Positions 2,229 to 12,332 of a stretch of 30,598 nucleotides of DNA are shown piece by piece. How positions within the stretch are numbered: position 1 is the stretch's first letter; every line of letters starts with the position of its first letter. The notes under the pieces are model-generated. The model did no database searches. It was not told the DNA's origin and saw only the letters and a program-made list of their open reading frames with translations. A program made the translations under genes and the position numbers. The stretch is taken from positions 1 to 30,598 of IMG/VR virus record IMGVR_UViG_3300031758_000372, one strand, 5' to 3'. This stretch comes from a virus.

Positions 2229-4319
2229 TCAAGAGTTATCCACAGGCAAAGTCTCAAGAGTTCGGACATCATTGACCACAAAAGTTTTCTTGTGCTTGAA
2301 CAATTTCTTCTGTCCTTCCTCTTTCATCAATAGATTGCCACTCATCACAAGTGATGTTAAAGCTGTAGAAATCTCGGTGTTGCCAATCTTATGACCCTCT
2401 TTGCGAATCTTTTCTCTAATCTCATTCAACCCCATCTCATACCCATGTGCTTCCATAAACTGTGAGACCAACTCAAGGCGAGAGTCGGCAGAGGCGATGG
2501 CGACGGTGCCACCTGAGATTGACACCGAGATTGACCCATCCTTGCCGTTTCGGATATTGGCAACGCCGAGTGTCTTTGCATCAGGGCAGAGGGCTCGGAC
2601 ATAGCCTGGGCGATCTTTAGTGACCTTCAAATCTAGTGCTCCGTCAATGCCTCTGCCAAATGGCAAGGACACATCACAGGCAATTGCCACCCCATCAATA
2701 TCAGCACGCTTTGCTTGAGCGCCGATGGCATAGTTGCCTCGGTTGTCCTTAGATTTAGTCACATGGTCAATTGTCAGAATGCCTGATCCAAATATCTTCA
2801 AAGGCTTAAGAACCTTTTGTGTGAAGGTCGTTGCATCCTTGTTCTTTTCCAAATCAAGCCCAAGTAAGTTCATCGCAGCATTGACACCGTCCACGACAAT
2901 GAGCGTTGGCATGAACTTACCAATCTCGGTTTTCATAATCTCACCGATGCCCTCACCAAGAGGTTCATCAGGGTTGGCATACTTGAACGACTTCAACTTG
3001 GTCATGTCGCATTTGAGGGTCTGAAGGCGGTTAAAGATGCCACGGGCTGAATCCTCAAAGTCAATGTAGAAAACACAGTTGCCCTTTGCTAACTCCTGTC
3101 GCACCGCTTCGAGTGCCACCCAAGTCTTGCCTGACTCAGACTCACCAAAGAGTGCGTTGACCTTGCCTGCATAAAGAATGCAGTTGCCATCCTCACGGCG
3201 AAGCATTGATGGTGGCGGTTCTTCATCAAAGTCCTCATTCCAAATCTCGCGTGGAATCCAAGAACTTGTGGCAACTTCCTCATTCTCATCATGTAACTGC
3301 ACCATTGATGGAGCGTGAACATCTAGCCCTGCCCAATCGGTTTTCAGCTCTTGAGAGGCACCATATCCCTTCTCACGCAAGGCTTTGGCTGCCTGTTTGA
3401 AATCTCCATTGTGTTCAATCTGCGCGTAAGCGGCAAACTTAGAGTATGAGGATTCAGCGTTGAAGATAGTGCTTGTTGAAAATACAAACAGTTTGTCATT
3501 GCCGTTGAAGTTGGTGGTGGCAGATACGCCTTCATTCTTGCCTGGTCTGCGCCATGCTGTGGCATCGCCCTTTGAATACACCTTTGTCCATCCAAGAGGT
3601 TCAAGGATAGATTCCCAGGTGACTTTGGCGTTGTAGTCATCACCTGCCGACAAGAATGAGTCATCGCGCTTGACCACATCTGCCTGAATAGATTCAACTT
3701 TTGGCATCTGATCAAACATCGCAAAGAGGTTGTGCAGGGCGTTTCTCTCCTGCATGGTAATTGTTGGAATGGTCTCAATTGACCCACCAATCAATGTCCA
3801 ATTGCCACCTGATGGGTGTGTGGTGCCACCTGAAGGTGCGGTGATGGTGAACCCACCTTGACCGCGAGTCTCGGCAAGCACATCGTTGCCACCTTCACCT
3901 GGTTTGCGAGCCAACTTTGTGTTGCCAGGAACCTCGCAATCTGAAATCTTGTAAAGCCAATGAAGCCCACCTGAAGGTGTCATCTCCACATATCCTGAGT
4001 TCAACTGCTCCCATAACTCTTTCAATCCTGAGTTGTTGGCAATCTCTGCGATTTCAAGATGTATCTTTTGAGCTACGGCGCGACCTTCAAGTTCAAGCAT
4101 CTCAAGATTGCCGGATACCTTGCCGGTGACAACGCCAATGCCATCAACGCCATTCTTGAACCACATCAACAATTCATCAGTATTGGGCAGTTCCTCTTGA
4201 AAGCGTTGCCAGGCAAAGGCAGGTCGCTTGGAACCGTCATTGGCGACAGGAACGACAGAGATGCCTTCTTTTAAGAACCTGAGTGCGATTGGCAGTAGCT
4301 CATTCACTTGCCACCCCAT
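2229..4319 (-). CDS. PrimPol-helicase replication protein
   Basis: A 696-residue replicative primase-helicase. Residues 1-180 resemble the bifunctional primase/polymerase (PrimPol) domain: start of fold KEGISVVP, GVVTGKVSGN, then TPSGGLHWLY around 115-123 and ETRGQGGFTITAPSGG around 150-165. The usual DxD metal pair is here ExE (MLELEG, E76 and E78). A linker leads to a RepA/AAA_25-type helicase: Walker A GESESGKT (392-399), Walker B LIVVD (473-477), then TIDHVTKS and a YAIGAQAKRAD sensor region. The C-terminal 80 residues look like a winged helix. It probably primes and unwinds at the phage fork. The start overlaps the zinc-ribbon gene by 16 bases. Confidence 0.9.
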   Translation of the reverse strand: MGWQVNELLPIALRFLKEGISVVPVANDGSKRPAFAWQRFQEELPNTDELLMWFKNGVDGIGVVTGKVSGNLEMLELEGRAVAQKIHLEIAEIANNSGLKELWEQLNSGYVEMTPSGGLHWLYKISDCEVPGNTKLARKPGEGGNDVLAETRGQGGFTITAPSGGTTHPSGGNWTLIGGSIETIPTITMQERNALHNLFAMFDQMPKVESIQADVVKRDDSFLSAGDDYNAKVTWESILEPLGWTKVYSKGDATAWRRPGKNEGVSATTNFNGNDKLFVFSTSTIFNAESSYSKFAAYAQIEHNGDFKQAAKALREKGYGASQELKTDWAGLDVHAPSMVQLHDENEEVATSSWIPREIWNEDFDEEPPPSMLRREDGNCILYAGKVNALFGESESGKTWVALEAVRQELAKGNCVFYIDFEDSARGIFNRLQTLKCDMTKLKSFKYANPDEPLGEGIGEIMKTEIGKFMPTLIVVDGVNAAMNLLGLDLEKNKDATTFTQKVLKPLKIFGSGILTIDHVTKSKDNRGNYAIGAQAKRADIDGVAIACDVSLPFGRGIDGALDLKVTKDRPGYVRALCPDAKTLGVANIRNGKDGSISVSISGGTVAIASADSRLELVSQFMEAHGYEMGLNEIREKIRKEGHKIGNTEISTALTSLVMSGNLLMKEEGQKKLFKHKKTFVVNDVRTLETLPVDNS
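2236..2244. promoter_or_regulatory. Perfect DnaA-box-like site
   Basis: TTATCCACA, the consensus DnaA box, lies within the last codons of the primase-helicase gene and immediately right of the GC-rich direct repeats. Together with the box at 2048 it brackets the repeat region. Confidence 0.35.
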
Positions 4320-8049: not shown

Positions 8050-8058
8050 TTATCCACA
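8050..8058. promoter_or_regulatory. DnaA-box-like site in the divergent intergenic region
   Basis: TTATCCACA, a consensus match, lies midway between the divergent leftward and rightward units. A single isolated box may be chance, but a role in early regulation or replication initiation is possible. Confidence 0.3.
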
Positions 8059-8096: not shown

Positions 8097-8124
8097 TTGA
8101 CATCCGTATGGATGAGAGTATTGT
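8097..8124 (+). promoter_or_regulatory. Sigma70-type promoter for the plus-strand operon
   Basis: A perfect -35 TTGACA (8097-8102), a 16-base spacer and a -10-like TATTGT (8119-8124) lie 42 bases before the first plus-strand gene. The spacer contains the inverted repeat CATCC-GTAT-GGATG (8101-8114), which overlaps the -35 and is a natural operator position. This is the only promoter I can place with some assurance. Confidence 0.6.
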
Positions 8125-8129
8125 TCTTC

Positions 8130-8150
8130 TTGTAGGCGAACGACCTACAA
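8130..8150 (+). promoter_or_regulatory. 5' leader stem-loop
   Basis: A perfect seven-base-pair stem TTGTAGG/CCTACAA with a seven-base loop. Given the -10 at 8119-8124, transcription should start close to the base of this stem, so the mRNA would begin with the hairpin. Such 5' hairpins protect mRNA from decay; as DNA it could be a second operator. It is followed by the binding site AAAGGAA and the first ATG. Confidence 0.55.
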
Positions 8151-8165
8151 AGAAAAGGAAAGAAA

Positions 8166-8393
8166 ATGAAGCTAGTACCAACAGAAGAAAAAATCACAAT
8201 CAAGTGGTTTTGGGTAACAACAGATGGAAAGAAATATCGCAACAACAGAGGTTTTGTTCACAATGCTTGGGATGTAACTTGCTCTTGCGGTTGGGAATCA
8301 AGAACTGGTGGCGCAATCAAAGCATCAGTTCAAAGAGATGTTGATTCACACAAAATATTCGTACATAACTACACTTTTGAAATGGGTGCATAA
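8166..8393 (+). CDS. Hypothetical protein, first gene of plus-strand operon
   Basis: A 75-residue protein of unknown family. It contains a CSCGW motif near the middle and several His in the last third (DSHKIFVHNY), compatible with a zinc site. It is aromatic-rich (FWVTTDGKKYRN). Binding site AAAGGAA precedes the ATG. Its TAA shares a base with the next ATG (TAATG). Codon use is AT-richer than the leftward genes. Confidence 0.8.
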   Translation: MKLVPTEEKITIKWFWVTTDGKKYRNNRGFVHNAWDVTCSCGWESRTGGAIKASVQRDVDSHKIFVHNYTFEMGA

Positions 8394-8614
8394 TGACAGG
8401 CAACGATTTTTTCACAAAGTATTACGGCGACCTTGTAGGTGCAACCATTCTCTCTTTTGATGGGATGCAAGATCAAGAAGATTTTGGTGATGGTTTTCCA
8501 TCATTCACAGTCAAGTTCAAGGATGGCGAGATTGGTCAAATTCAAATTAGTCAAGACCCCGAAGGCAATGGTGGCGGTTTCATTTTCGGTTTGAATAGTG
8601 AGGTGAATGCATAA
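8393..8614 (+). CDS. Hypothetical acidic protein
   Basis: A 73-residue protein, acidic and probably beta-rich (PSFTVKFKDGEIGQIQIS), with a Gly-rich stretch GNGGGF. No recognised family. It is coupled to both neighbours by TAATG overlaps. The acidity and small size would suit a host-protein inhibitor or anti-defence protein, but that is only a guess from context. Confidence 0.75.
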   Translation: MTGNDFFTKYYGDLVGATILSFDGMQDQEDFGDGFPSFTVKFKDGEIGQIQISQDPEGNGGGFIFGLNSEVNA

Positions 8615-8862
8615 TGTACGCATATGAAATTTCAGCAGATGAACAATTCACAAAGGCAGAAGCAGTTGGAAGAATGGAAGAAGCAATTCAAAAATACCAA
8701 TCATTTCTTCAAGACTTGCTTGAAGTGTATGAGAATTCAGATGATGATGTTCAAGACTTTTTGAATCAGAATTATTCTGAAACAGTTTTCAAATATGCGT
8801 GTGTCTTAGACATTTCAGAAATGTTGTTTGAGGTTGCAACTTGGGATGGAGTTGAAGTATGA
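8614..8862 (+). CDS. Hypothetical helical acidic protein
   Basis: An 82-residue protein, mostly helical and acidic (TKAEAVGRMEEAIQKYQSF and YENSDDDVQDFL). No family recognised. The start overlaps the previous stop; the next gene starts inside its last codon and stop (ATGA). Confidence 0.75.
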   Translation: MYAYEISADEQFTKAEAVGRMEEAIQKYQSFLQDLLEVYENSDDDVQDFLNQNYSETVFKYACVLDISEMLFEVATWDGVEV

Positions 8863-9017
8863 CAAAAAAGCATTGGTATCGAGTAACAATTATTGCTGAA
8901 AAAACAGTTCGGATTTATGCCGAAGATGCTCAAGATGCTAAAGATAAAGCTGATGCAAAATATGAACCATTATGGAACGCAGAAATTGCATATAGAGAGG
9001 ATGGAACTCGAGAATGA
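8859..9017 (+). CDS. 52-residue hypothetical protein
   Basis: A short frame beginning MTKKHWYRVTIIAEKTVRIY and continuing AEDAQDAKDKADAKYEPLWN, a beta-beta-alpha-looking small domain. Both ends use ATGA overlaps with the neighbours. A resemblance to small phage proteins beginning 'YRVTI.A....V.A.s..eA' is noted but unnamed. Its function is unknown. Confidence 0.65.
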   Translation: MTKKHWYRVTIIAEKTVRIYAEDAQDAKDKADAKYEPLWNAEIAYREDGTRE

Positions 9018-9178
9018 TTACAAAGCGTGGCAAGCGCGTACGAGCAATTGCAATTGCAGTTGGAATCATTGTCATTTGGCAAGTTGCAAGCAATCTGTGG
9101 TGGGTTGGAATTGATGCACCCAATGCAGAGTTTCTTGGTTGGTGTTGGGGTTCAATGAGCGAATGTGTGGTGTTGTAA
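9014..9178 (+). CDS. 54-residue single-span membrane protein
   Basis: A basic N-terminus (MITKRGKRVRA) is followed by a transmembrane helix (IAIAVGIIVIWQVASNLWW) and a short tail with two Cys (GWCWG, SECVVL). The predicted topology is N-in with the Cys tail outside. It overlaps the genes on both sides. It might modify the host envelope or anchor a complex; no homolog recognised. Confidence 0.65.
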   Translation: MITKRGKRVRAIAIAVGIIVIWQVASNLWWVGIDAPNAEFLGWCWGSMSECVVL

Positions 9179-9309
9179 TGGTCGGAAAGAAAATCAGGTC
9201 AGTCAGAGTCAGTGATCAAGTATGGGCGAAGGCGAAGGCGAAGGCACAGTCAGAAGGCAAATCAGTTTCCGAAGTAATTGTTGACTTTTTGAAGGGATAT
9301 ATCAAATGA
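9178..9309 (+). CDS. Ribbon-helix-helix (CopG-like) candidate regulator
   Basis: A 43-residue protein with the RHH pattern: a short basic strand (KKIRSVRVSDQVW), a helix rich in Ala and Lys (AKAKAKAQSEG), then KSVSEVIVDFLKGYIK as the second helix. It is a plausible DNA-binding autoregulator of this operon and could bind the inverted repeat in its promoter (inference). It is coupled on both sides (TAATG before, ATGA after). Confidence 0.7.
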   Translation: MVGKKIRSVRVSDQVWAKAKAKAQSEGKSVSEVIVDFLKGYIK

Positions 9310-9764
9310 CAAAAGCCACAACCGCCATTGCCTTTGCCGAAAGAGGTTGGCACATCTTGCCTGTTGCTCCTTATCAAAAGACACCATTCTTTCCCATTGC
9401 AACTCATGGGTATAAGTCAGCGACAACTGACATTGAATCCATTGAGAAATGGTTCACTCGCGCACCGATGCTCAACATTGGCATCGCTTGCGCCCCTTCA
9501 AACTTAGTTGTCTTTGACATTGATTACCGAAACGGCGGAACAACTGAAGGTCTTAACCTTGACACATTCACAGTTGCAACAGGCGATGGCTTGCATTTGT
9601 ATTACACCGCCCCTGCCGATGCTAAGTTCAAGGGAAAATTGCGTGAAGGCGTTGACATCAAACACAATGGATATGTTGTAGGCGCAGGATCATTGCACGA
9701 ATCAGGCAAGTTCTATGAGGTCGTCAAAGACATTCAACCTGCACCGATGATGGAGTGGATTTAG
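9306..9764 (+). CDS. Free-standing PrimPol-domain protein
   Basis: A 152-residue protein made only of a bifunctional primase/polymerase N-terminal domain. Visible elements in order: ERGWHILPVAP, NIGIACAPSNLVVFDID with a canonical DxD metal pair, TGDGLHLYY with the motif-II His, and GVDIKHNGYVVGAGS. It lacks the helicase and C-terminal domains of the large protein at 2229-4319. It could be a dedicated primer synthase, a bypass polymerase or a decoy. It is the last gene of the plus-strand operon, followed within 16 bases by a terminator. Confidence 0.85.
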   Translation: MTKATTAIAFAERGWHILPVAPYQKTPFFPIATHGYKSATTDIESIEKWFTRAPMLNIGIACAPSNLVVFDIDYRNGGTTEGLNLDTFTVATGDGLHLYYTAPADAKFKGKLREGVDIKHNGYVVGAGSLHESGKFYEVVKDIQPAPMMEWI

Positions 9765-9779
9765 CCTAAAAAGACAAAA

Positions 9780-9820
9780 AAATCCCCCTCACCATGACCG
9801 ACCAATGGTGAGGGGGATTT
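9780..9820. terminator. Bidirectional rho-independent terminator
   Basis: Perfect 16-base-pair inverted repeat (arms 9780-9795 and 9805-9820, nine-base loop) with a GC-rich core CCCCCTCACC and A/T tracts on both flanks. It lies between the convergent ends of the plus operon (stop at 9764) and the leftward late unit (stop at 9822), so it should stop transcription from both sides. Confidence 0.92.
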
Positions 9821-9821
9821 C

Positions 9822-10685
9822 TTATTTGGCAAGCGCGAGAGCAATGCCTTCTTCGAGGGAGATTTCTGGTTCATATACTTCAAGCATCCCAGTCGGGTCG
9901 CCTACGCGGTATTCAACACCTATTGGCGCATCAAGATTGTTTTTGATAGGCGCAAGATAACCTGCTTGCAACATCACCATTTCTGCCAATTCAATGAATG
10001 AGGTTGGGCGACCTGTGCAGATATTCATTGTTGTAACATCATTCATCACGGCTGCAAATGTAGCTCCAACGACATCATCAATGTGAACAAAGTCGCGCAC
10101 CTGGGTACCTCTGCCCCACACTTCAAATGGGTCTGCCTTGCGCTTGGCGCGTTCAATAAAAGATGGGAATGGGTAATCAAGCGCCTGATCTGAACCATAT
10201 CCGCTGAATGGGCGCAACACAGTTACCTTCAAACCTTCAGCTCTTGCATATGAAGCAAGCATTTCGCCCGATAACTTCGCCCAACCATAAGTGAAATCAG
10301 GTGTGCGAATATGTTCAAGATTGATGTCAATTTCACGCAATTTTTGTTGATAGGCAAGTTTTTGCAAGAAGATTGGATAAGCCGCACTTGATGAAAAATA
10401 GACAATGTGCTTCGGGCGAGTTTTCAGCGCCCATTGGAACATATCTGCATCGATGGCAAGGTCAGAGGCAACTGACAAAGGATTGCCCTCAATAGTCATT
10501 CGCCCACCGACAATCGCCGCGAGATGAATCACGATGTCAAACTGTGTGTTGTCTGTGGCGAAGAAATGTCGAACCTCTTTGCCATTTACTAGGTCAATGC
10601 CTGTGATGTCATGGCGTTGTTTTGCAAGCGCACGATGAAATGCACGCCCAACAAAGCCGGCATCGCCTGTGATAAGAATTTTCAT
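9822..10685 (-). CDS. NAD-dependent nucleotide-sugar epimerase/dehydratase
   Basis: A 287-residue extended short-chain dehydrogenase. It has the Rossmann motif TGDAGFVG (6-13), SSSAAYP around 98-104 and the catalytic Y133-GWA-K137. It probably makes an activated sugar, such as GDP-fucose/colitose-type or dTDP-sugar, for the two glycosyltransferases encoded just upstream. The open frame extends to a GTG at 10697, but I choose the ATG at 10685 because it overlaps the upstream stop (TAATG) and is preceded by GGGGG at proper distance. The sugar itself cannot be told from sequence alone. Confidence 0.88.
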   Translation of the reverse strand: MKILITGDAGFVGRAFHRALAKQRHDITGIDLVNGKEVRHFFATDNTQFDIVIHLAAIVGGRMTIEGNPLSVASDLAIDADMFQWALKTRPKHIVYFSSSAAYPIFLQKLAYQQKLREIDINLEHIRTPDFTYGWAKLSGEMLASYARAEGLKVTVLRPFSGYGSDQALDYPFPSFIERAKRKADPFEVWGRGTQVRDFVHIDDVVGATFAAVMNDVTTMNICTGRPTSFIELAEMVMLQAGYLAPIKNNLDAPIGVEYRVGDPTGMLEVYEPEISLEEGIALALAK

Positions 10686-11407
10686 TATTGCCCCCACTCA
10701 TACAAGTATTTATCATCACCCGATAAAGTCACAGATTTCTGTTGATCAACGGTGAACATAAACCTATCATTCTCATCTAAAGCTGCGCCAATGTGACTTA
10801 CCTGGTTGACAGGTTCAAGCAGATATGGCTTGCGGATGGATTTGCCTTCAACGGCTGTATCGTAGAACTCGTCATGAACAAAGCACGAGAACTGAATCCG
10901 TGGGTAAATCAGATTTCTCAGGAAGTCTTGATCTTGGGTGTAATAGTCCTTGATTTCAACAGACTCAATCAGAGTGCGAATGTCCTTGAAGAGTGCCGAG
11001 CGAACTGTGAACATACCTGCATTGATAGGGTAATTGTGACCAATCGGATGATCCTTCATGATGTGGGCATCTAAGCCTGACTCAATGAATTCCTCATGTG
11101 CCTTGAGTTCACGCAAAGACAATCGAGCATCGGCATCACGGAAGGCAACAAAGTCATAATCTAGTTCACACGCAAGAAAGCGCCATAATTTGGCGGTGTG
11201 ATCTTCAGGTGCATCTGTTTGAATAACTCGAACATTGGGAAACAGGCGCAGGGTTGAGATTACCCAGGAAGGCACCGATTGCCCGACAAAGAAGATGAGG
11301 TCATATTCCTCATCCAAAATCTCTTGAGCAATGATGGCGTTTTTGATTGCTCCGACTGAGTATCGAAGGTCTGACCCATACAAAGAAAAAGAGATTGCCT
11401 GTTTCAT
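10685..11407 (-). CDS. GT-A fold glycosyltransferase
   Basis: A 240-residue protein with a nucleotide-diphospho-sugar transferase look: N-terminal SFSLYGSDLRYSVGAIKNAI, DLIFFVGQSVP, and the metal-binding DAD at 91-93 (FRDADARLSLRE). It is followed by acceptor-side elements (NAGMFTVRS, DQDFL). Likely transfers a sugar onto a phage or host acceptor. It overlaps the upstream GT by ATGA and the epimerase by TAATG, so the three are co-translated. Confidence 0.82.
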   Translation of the reverse strand: MKQAISFSLYGSDLRYSVGAIKNAIIAQEILDEEYDLIFFVGQSVPSWVISTLRLFPNVRVIQTDAPEDHTAKLWRFLACELDYDFVAFRDADARLSLRELKAHEEFIESGLDAHIMKDHPIGHNYPINAGMFTVRSALFKDIRTLIESVEIKDYYTQDQDFLRNLIYPRIQFSCFVHDEFYDTAVEGKSIRKPYLLEPVNQVSHIGAALDENDRFMFTVDQQKSVTLSGDDKYLYEWGQ

Positions 11408-12066
11408 TTGCGAAGTTTCTTCAGTAAGACCTCGTATGCTTCAGATTCAATATAGTTCTTGTAAGCAAGAGCATCGGCAGAATAAACTTCCTGCGCATTG
11501 ACCTCACGATAACCCTCATCCCAATCAGCTTTTCCTGCAATCGGGTGCATATGCTCAATGATGACATCTTCAAGATAGGTCAAAGAGCCTAAATCCTCGC
11601 CCAATTTCTTCCAAAAGTTGTCAAGATAAAGATGCTTCATATTCGGTGGCACCATTCCATCAAGTGCGCCAACAATGTCAGATGTCATTGAGACCATCGT
11701 TGGAAGGCGCTTGCCTTGAAGTAGGTCATTGCCGTAGGCAAGTGACGGTGCCTGTTGCAATGCCTGAATTAAGAGTGCATCCCAATCGGCGGTGCGTGGG
11801 CGGTGGTCATCGCCGATGAAGGTGAAGTATTTGTATTTGTCTTGGTATTTGCGTGCCACATAATTGAGTGGCTTTGCCATTCCGCGAGAATCATTGTTGC
11901 AGGTGATTACATAATCATCGCCTACTTCAAAGACATAATCATCTGCCTTTGGGTCGTCATAGTCCACGATGAAGAGCAAGCGTGAGGCACTTGAGAGTTC
12001 ATCGTGACAGGCTAAGAGTTCAACTGCATTTTGTGGTCGCCCACGAGTTGGAACAAGCGTGATCAT
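11404..12066 (-). CDS. GT2-like glycosyltransferase
   Basis: A 220-residue family-2-like transferase: MITLVPTRGRP start, LFIVDYDDP, NNDSRGMAKPLNYVARKY, then the metal site GDDHRP (85-90). I prefer the ATG at 12066, which overlaps the upstream stop (ATGA); an ATG two codons earlier is possible. There are no membrane segments, so the acceptor is cytoplasmic (virion protein, nucleic acid or sugar intermediate). It forms a sugar cassette with the next two genes. Confidence 0.82.
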   Translation of the reverse strand: MITLVPTRGRPQNAVELLACHDELSSASRLLFIVDYDDPKADDYVFEVGDDYVITCNNDSRGMAKPLNYVARKYQDKYKYFTFIGDDHRPRTADWDALLIQALQQAPSLAYGNDLLQGKRLPTMVSMTSDIVGALDGMVPPNMKHLYLDNFWKKLGEDLGSLTYLEDVIIEHMHPIAGKADWDEGYREVNAQEVYSADALAYKNYIESEAYEVLLKKLRK

Positions 12067-12332
12067 TTCCATCGTGATTCAATCTCCCCTGCTATTGAGG
12101 CATATGCTGCCAAATCTACAAATGAGTCTTCATGGTCAGGTGTCTCAATCAAACGAGCTATTTTCACAAGACATAAACACAAAGCGACCTGTGAAGGTGT
12201 TATCTCAGTTTCAAGATACACGCTCCACAGGTCGGCAATGCGCTTGTGATTTACATACGGTGATCCATAGTTTTTTTGACGATCAGTATGCGTGAGGCGT
12301 TTTGCCTCATCTAAAATTTCCCCCCGGTTCAT
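12063..12332 (-). CDS. DUF6378-like phage protein
   Basis: An 89-residue protein matching a widespread phage family: ILDEAKRLTHTDRQKNYGSP, then HKRIADLWSVYLE, VALCLCLVKIARL and a closing DLAAYASIAGEI. The D-R-x-x-x-Y-G-x-P and H-x-R-I elements are typical of it. Its function is unknown; a nucleotide-handling fold has been suggested for relatives. It begins three bases after the stop of the holin-like gene. Confidence 0.75.
   Translation of the reverse strand: MNRGEILDEAKRLTHTDRQKNYGSPYVNHKRIADLWSVYLETEITPSQVALCLCLVKIARLIETPDHEDSFVDLAAYASIAGEIESRWK

Follow-up and report, generated by a model that had tools for sequence, protein, structure and literature searches.

What holds together a small group of genes that runs against nearly every other gene of its phage, and what might such a group be for? 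In the virus contig IMGVR_UViG_3300031758_000372 (30.6 kb; its positions 1 to 30,598, the whole stretch analysed here, are called the window), leftward is the direction of nearly all genes, and seven rightward small genes lie at 8166-9764. The original prediction took them for a single unit under its own switch, an early takeover or defence-evasion island with an autoregulator. In this study, we propose that the block is probably a cassette platform, in which a fixed frame surrounds a slot of interchangeable small genes that share a seam and are swapped at the seams. As read from sequence comparison, its anatomy of frame, interchangeable cassettes and common seam is well supported.

Organization of the rightward operon

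The operon occupies 8097-9820 of the window and comprises the seven coupled small genes together with a promoter, a dyad, a leader hairpin and a terminator. The promoter, TTGACA-16-TATTGT (8097-8124, plus strand), has its -35 hexamer TTGACA at 8097 and a -10-like TATTGT 16 nt further; the dyad CATCCGTATGGATG at 8101-8114 is the probable operator of the ribbon-helix-helix (RHH) protein and is of type A; and the leader hairpin TTGTAGG-cgaacga-CCTACAA (8130-8150, plus strand) precedes the ribosome site AAGGAAAG and an ATG. All seven genes are on the plus strand. Four of them are variable cassettes, i.e. g1 (8166-8393, 75 aa), g2 (8393-8614, 73 aa, acidic), g3 (8614-8862, 82 aa, acidic) and g4 (8859-9017, 52 aa), and three belong to the frame, i.e. 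g5 (9014-9178, 54 aa, a single-helix membrane protein by reading of its sequence), g6 (9178-9309, 43 aa, RHH, Arc-like) and, in the type A lineage, g7 (9306-9764, 152 aa, a stand-alone PrimPol). From g1 to g7 the junctions are TAATG, TAATG, ATGA, ATGA, TAATG and ATGA in order. The g1/g2 junction carries the exact seam GGTGCATAATG (8385-8395, plus strand), which combines a ribosome site, a stop and a start, and the g2/g3 junction carries a variant seam, GAATGCATAATG (8605-8616, plus strand).

The bidirectional terminator at 9780-9820 has a perfect 16-bp stem, a 9-nt loop and a predicted energy of -29 kcal/mol, and its stem shows a compensatory change in one relative, L018. The parts that had been read from the letters alone are all found: the seven genes coupled by ATGA or TAATG overlaps, the -35, the dyad and the 5' hairpin are in place, and the perfect terminator is confirmed, slightly past the position (9764) at which the original prediction had ended the unit. 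The expected Cys/His protein, acidic proteins, membrane protein, RHH protein and PrimPol are borne out by g1, by g2 and g3, and by g5, g6 and g7, respectively. The AT-richer base usage also holds, with 39% GC at 8-9 kb of the window against ~46% in the surroundings, and 43.2% inside against 46.5% outside over all arrays. On the opposite strand at 9822-12072, an epimerase and two glycosyltransferase-like genes (our own reading) adjoin the array.

A constant frame around a variable slot

IMG/VR was searched with the PrimPol, g4, g5, one other cassette and a second cassette family as baits. This gave 123 distinct arrays, 113 of which were kept once unclear contexts had been removed; six loci (L044-L046 and L195-L197) were left out because their contexts were unrelated. 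In most contigs of the first set of relatives, g5, g6, g7 and the majority of flanks showed ~80-100% conservation. The genes g1-g4 were mostly absent from this set, their place being taken by other small genes that were likewise coupled. The block was expected to be conserved in related phages, and this is true of the promoter, the leader, g5, g6, g7 and the terminator, which persist, but not of g1-g4, which are exchangeable cassettes. While the single promoter, the coupling and the repressor-type gene would fit an early takeover island whose content is fixed and conserved as a whole, the g1-g4 set of the window was found again only in the near-identical contig L001, which makes that explanation exceedingly improbable; as a fixed conserved unit the block was rejected, with g1-g4 mostly missing in relatives.

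The constant frame consists of the promoter with its putative operator, the leader hairpin, g5 or an analogue, the RHH gene g6 and the terminator, with the PrimPol gene g7 added in one lineage. The slot of the 113 arrays holds ~97 variable families in 95 combinations, with a median of three per array (four in the window) and 58 of the 97 families seen once, these counts being approximate owing to start-codon calls and to a leader fused to the first cassette at some loci, which gave a spurious merged family (C03). Rarefaction showed that the number of families still climbs with sampling, with no saturation. Median dN/dS values are 0.05-0.57 in the families large enough for the test, among them those of the seven window genes, and such purifying selection indicates that these reading frames encode real proteins. 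Across the arrays a given gene stands beside different neighbours, with sharply defined borders, which is the pattern by which mosaicism of phage modules is recognised. Four further loci (L067, L068, L071 and L076) have a single relative of a TREE- or g4-type cassette in a different phage context and lack the exact seam, which suggests that cassettes leave the platform.

A common seam joins unrelated cassettes

Many unrelated cassettes end in a common connector of 11-18 bases with the consensus AAAGGnRGGTGCATAATG; when one member was taken from each of 55 upstream families, the consensus was AAAGG-n-RGGTGCATAATG. The first half of the seam is an extended Shine-Dalgarno sequence (AAAGG-n-AGGTG), and, allowing for one additional base, its 5' part corresponds to the complement of the 3' terminus of 16S rRNA; the second half is the upstream stop overlapping the downstream ATG. 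Among the 779 junctions, spacings of -1 (TAATG, 258 junctions) and -4 (ATGA, 205 junctions, mostly close to g5) are the most frequent. The Shine-Dalgarno match reaches at least 8 of 10 positions at 118 of the 258 TAATG junctions, and the exact 11-mer GGTGCATAATG stands at 96 junctions. Within the same contigs, this 11-mer is found 96 times in the 178 kb of array sequence and is absent from both strands of the 585 kb outside. It brings together 28 families on its upstream side and 28 on its downstream side, in 64 pairings across all frame types. Its translation is Lys-Ala/Val-Gly-Ala-stop, and a C-terminal Gly-Ala is found in 128 of 385 variable-cassette genes.

The seam holds the ribosome site and start codon of the next gene, so genes could be swapped and still be expressed. 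Each seam-type cassette would thus bring a ribosome site for whichever gene comes next, at the cost of a Lys-Ala/Val-Gly-Ala tail on its own product. Such a seam could, however, persist through selection on translation alone. Under this alternative, which we regard as nearly an even matter, the seam is a strong ribosome and coupling site kept for translation, cassettes move by ordinary homologous or illegitimate recombination at any position, and survival is limited to products whose break falls at a gene border, as in classic phage mosaicism; the almost full complementarity of the seam to the 3' end of 16S rRNA agrees with it, and break-points at gene borders are what selection alone would leave. 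It accounts less easily for GCATA, which lies outside the Shine-Dalgarno part and is nevertheless conserved among unrelated genes, or for the absence of the 11-mer from all other gene starts of the same contigs, which the phages express without it. A more tentative possibility goes beyond the cassette platform itself, namely that the seam is a natural assembly standard, a DNA adaptor on which selection acts in two ways, for its use as a ribosome site and for its use as a recombination joint, and which would give any compatible frame access to an open shared pool of small host-interaction genes, expressed as soon as they are inserted; if so, the C-terminal tail would be a scar that the adaptor leaves on the protein.

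Probable exchange at seams and gene order

Comparison of arrays placed the breaks at the seams. Where the upstream cassette is the same and the downstream cassette differs (627 pairs, not independent of one another), identity is high through the ATG and drops to the chance level, 0.2-0.4, from +3; where the downstream cassette is the same and the upstream one differs (834 pairs, likewise not independent), upstream identity stays close to the chance level as far as about -19 and climbs over the seam. The nearest relatives of the window's g1-g4 are spread over four different arrays, and at base level the breaks fall on the junctions: the closest copies of g2 are in L013 and L019 (95.6% nt identity), that of g3 is in L022 (97.5%), flanked by different neighbours, that of g4 is in L070 (91.8%), which has a type B frame, and the closest relative of g1 is a weak match in L155. 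The frames of L070 and L155 differ in type from that of the window. Across frame types, cassettes are 84-94% identical at the nucleotide level, where the RHH genes are ~50% identical.

Free shuffling of the cassettes was considered and found too strong a description, as 86 family pairs occur in one order only and 7 in both. In addition, g1 is first in every array that has it, and g4 is always directly before g5; exchange is thus position-aware rather than free. For the cassette platform we envisage that recombination between phages infecting the same cell would swap the cassettes, the break-points falling at the seams, and that a new combination could be translated immediately from the existing promoter.

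Regulation of the array

The product of g6 matches the RHH profile phrog_6506 (E=2.6e-10), and nearly all arrays have an RHH gene at their 3' end or close to it. The -35 is kept as TTGACA or TGGACA in relatives, and it is this conservation, rather than the pattern, that supports the promoter call, since a promoter pattern scan returned 3 sites against 3.6 expected from shuffles, i.e. no better than chance. Type A arrays carry the dyad CATnCGTATGGAT wherever any dyad was found; in type B arrays it is replaced by TGTATATACA (44 of 51), and the RHH type and the promoter dyad co-segregate with no crossover. This co-segregation supports autoregulation, though lineage alone could give the same pattern, as each lineage passes on its frame type together with its dyad and their co-segregation does not represent independent events. 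The g6 product is probably an autoregulator whose putative operator is the promoter dyad, and the proposal of one rightward unit that is regulated and has a repressor-type gene of its own gains from the near-universal RHH gene and from its linkage to the dyad. The RHH protein would bind the dyad, which overlaps the promoter spacer, and turn the operon down in the way of Arc/Aca-type autoregulators.

The g5 family has 85 members in the 123 arrays, with analogues elsewhere. In most arrays of all types, a small one-helix membrane protein of similar layout (g5 or C11/C33-type analogues) was observed at or near the position preceding the RHH gene, which suggests a functional pair with the RHH protein. 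A small membrane protein that adjoins a repressor-type gene also recalls lysogeny, in which case the block would be an immunity module with an Arc-like repressor and superinfection-exclusion morons expressed from the prophage. The repressor-type gene lies here with opposite-strand genes between the late and replication modules, separated by a divergent promoter region, as such a module might; yet no integrase was recognised on reading the translated window ORFs, and no g5 relative was found in the 84,980 species genomes of GTDB, hence no prophage form was seen and no host could be linked through a prophage. We consider lysogeny very unlikely as the explanation.

The leader hairpin keeps its loop AACGG among relatives and its stems vary. 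A loop-centred pairing test gave a modestly positive result for 25 distinct hairpins, with 68% pairing against 62% in shuffled sequences, none of 1000 shuffles reaching the observed value; column-wise covariation in the type A alignment was not significant, because the stems shift register. A search of Rfam gave only a sub-threshold match to the S15 leader, which was taken as chance. The terminators after the RHH gene in lineage B (L053, L057, L070, L133 and L174) have the loop GAACGG, similar to the AACGG of the leader, with unrelated stems.

Products of the cassettes

In g1, C39-x-C41, H62 and H67 are invariant, and the protein is putatively zinc-binding; its structure model has no fold match in PDB. 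The AlphaFold model of g4 is beta-beta-alpha-beta. If g4 were an RNA polymerase inhibitor of the T7 Gp2/RNAP epsilon fold class, at least one cassette would stop host transcription, and several matches lean this way: the T7 Gp2 profile PF16857 (14.9 bits, below the gathering score of 27; E=0.027), phrog_1307 (E=0.0023, below significance), an hhalign alignment with T7 Gp2 (40% identity over 35 columns, probability 31%) and, as top PDB fold match in Foldseek, the RNAP epsilon protein YkzG (E=0.62, prob 0.80, not significant). All of these are below significance, however, a search of the g4 profile against PDB sequences returned no match, and the fold is widespread among small phage proteins, with 677 weak matches in the viral library, which is too common for a conclusion on kinship with Gp2 or epsilon; such an inhibitor is quite unlikely.

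Among the array products, searches of PADLOC, Pfam and NCBIfam found no curated family besides PrimPol and RHH, nothing at the NCBIfam cut-off, and no match to a known anti-defence function. The small proteins change fast, in line with what is expected of host-interaction genes. From the variability, size and regulation of the cassettes, a takeover or counter-defence role may be supposed, and the swapped proteins might form a host-interaction set diversified by an arms race; this is the least certain part of our proposal. A precedent comes from a cluster K phage, of the group with the SAS motifs discussed below, in which 38% of the tested non-structural genes were toxic or inhibitory (PMC11373665).

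PrimPol and the DnaA box

The g7 product is a clear PrimPol, matching Prim-Pol PF09250 with 108.8 bits (gathering score 22.8, E=4.8e-31), with the catalytic residues D71, D73, H97 and D117 invariant in 37 sequences. It had been called a lone PrimPol, which holds for the stand-alone gene but not for the phage, since a second PrimPol (696 aa, fused to a RecA/AAA-like domain) is encoded at 2229-4319 of the window. A DnaA box, TTATCCACA, stands upstream of the PrimPol-bearing (type A) arrays, at 8050-8058 (plus strand) in the divergent region upstream of the array promoter of the window, and is present in 0 of 51 type B arrays, which have no PrimPol. A second copy was observed at 2236 of the window. 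The box in the divergent region may mark a replication origin.

The confinement of the box to PrimPol-bearing arrays suggests that this subset has added a replication function. One could go further and regard the whole operon as a replication accessory, with PrimPol and DnaA box marking an origin and the small genes aiding the takeover of host DNA replication, and the invariant catalytic residues and a dN/dS of 0.08 for g7 are in keeping with this. On the other hand, the phage also has the PrimPol-helicase, and the cassette slot is kept in most arrays, which are without PrimPol and box, so that replication cannot account for the array itself; as a general explanation it is unlikely.

Comparison with known systems

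The closest parallel may be sought in the start-associated sequences (SAS/ESAS) of cluster K mycobacteriophages, i.e. a 13-bp GGGATAGGAGCCC located 3-7 bp before starts and mostly after gaps >50 bp (PMC3203893). Both are short conserved sequences with a Shine-Dalgarno core, repeated before unrelated small non-structural genes of actinobacteriophages. However, the seam logo differs from GGGATAGGAGCCC, the junction spacings are mostly -1/-4 rather than >50 bp, and the seam spans the stop/start of coupled genes, lies within coding sequence and marks cassette exchange. In the PeMobs of T4-type phages, promoter stem-loops stand between genes in hyperplastic regions, and a conserved regulatory unit likewise separates swappable small genes; the seam differs in having no promoter, with one promoter and one hairpin serving the whole array. 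Integrons also combine a promoter with a row of exchangeable genes, whereas the joints of the arrays are in-frame stop/start overlaps; no integrase was recognised among the window translations, and none of the seams inspected as examples shows an attC-like hairpin. Lambdoid phages have short shared linker or boundary sequences at exchange points; the seam, in contrast, is array-specific, is repeated at successive borders and doubles as a ribosome site. Archaeal viruses carry anti-defence gene sets with a conserved early regulatory sequence, a promoter per gene and an Aca regulator, the predicted wHTH protein Aca8 (PMC11065993). These sets resemble the arrays in their many unrelated small genes, conserved regulation and small DNA-binding regulator, but the array is one operon with an RHH protein, and none of its genes has a known anti-defence function.

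Hosts and significance

The hosts are probably freshwater actinobacteria, on the basis of a WhiB marker, GC content and terminase affinity. The terminase is 48.5% identical to that of Pontimonas phage phiPsal1, the nearest cultured relative, and the window also has a WhiB gene, an actinophage marker (PMC10202952), and an epimerase. The annotation of phiPsal1 has no opposite-strand array of small genes of the window's kind, and no relatives of g5 or of the TREE cassette were found in the cultured phages searched.

A scan for GGTGCATAATG behind an RHH-controlled promoter leads to ~97 small-protein families, hardly any with a known function, in phages whose probable hosts are actinobacteria abundant in lakes. 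If some of these cassettes are counter-defence or takeover proteins, a library for screening them is already available. Furthermore, the rearrangement of 'dark' small phage genes without loss of expression becomes testable at defined break-points.
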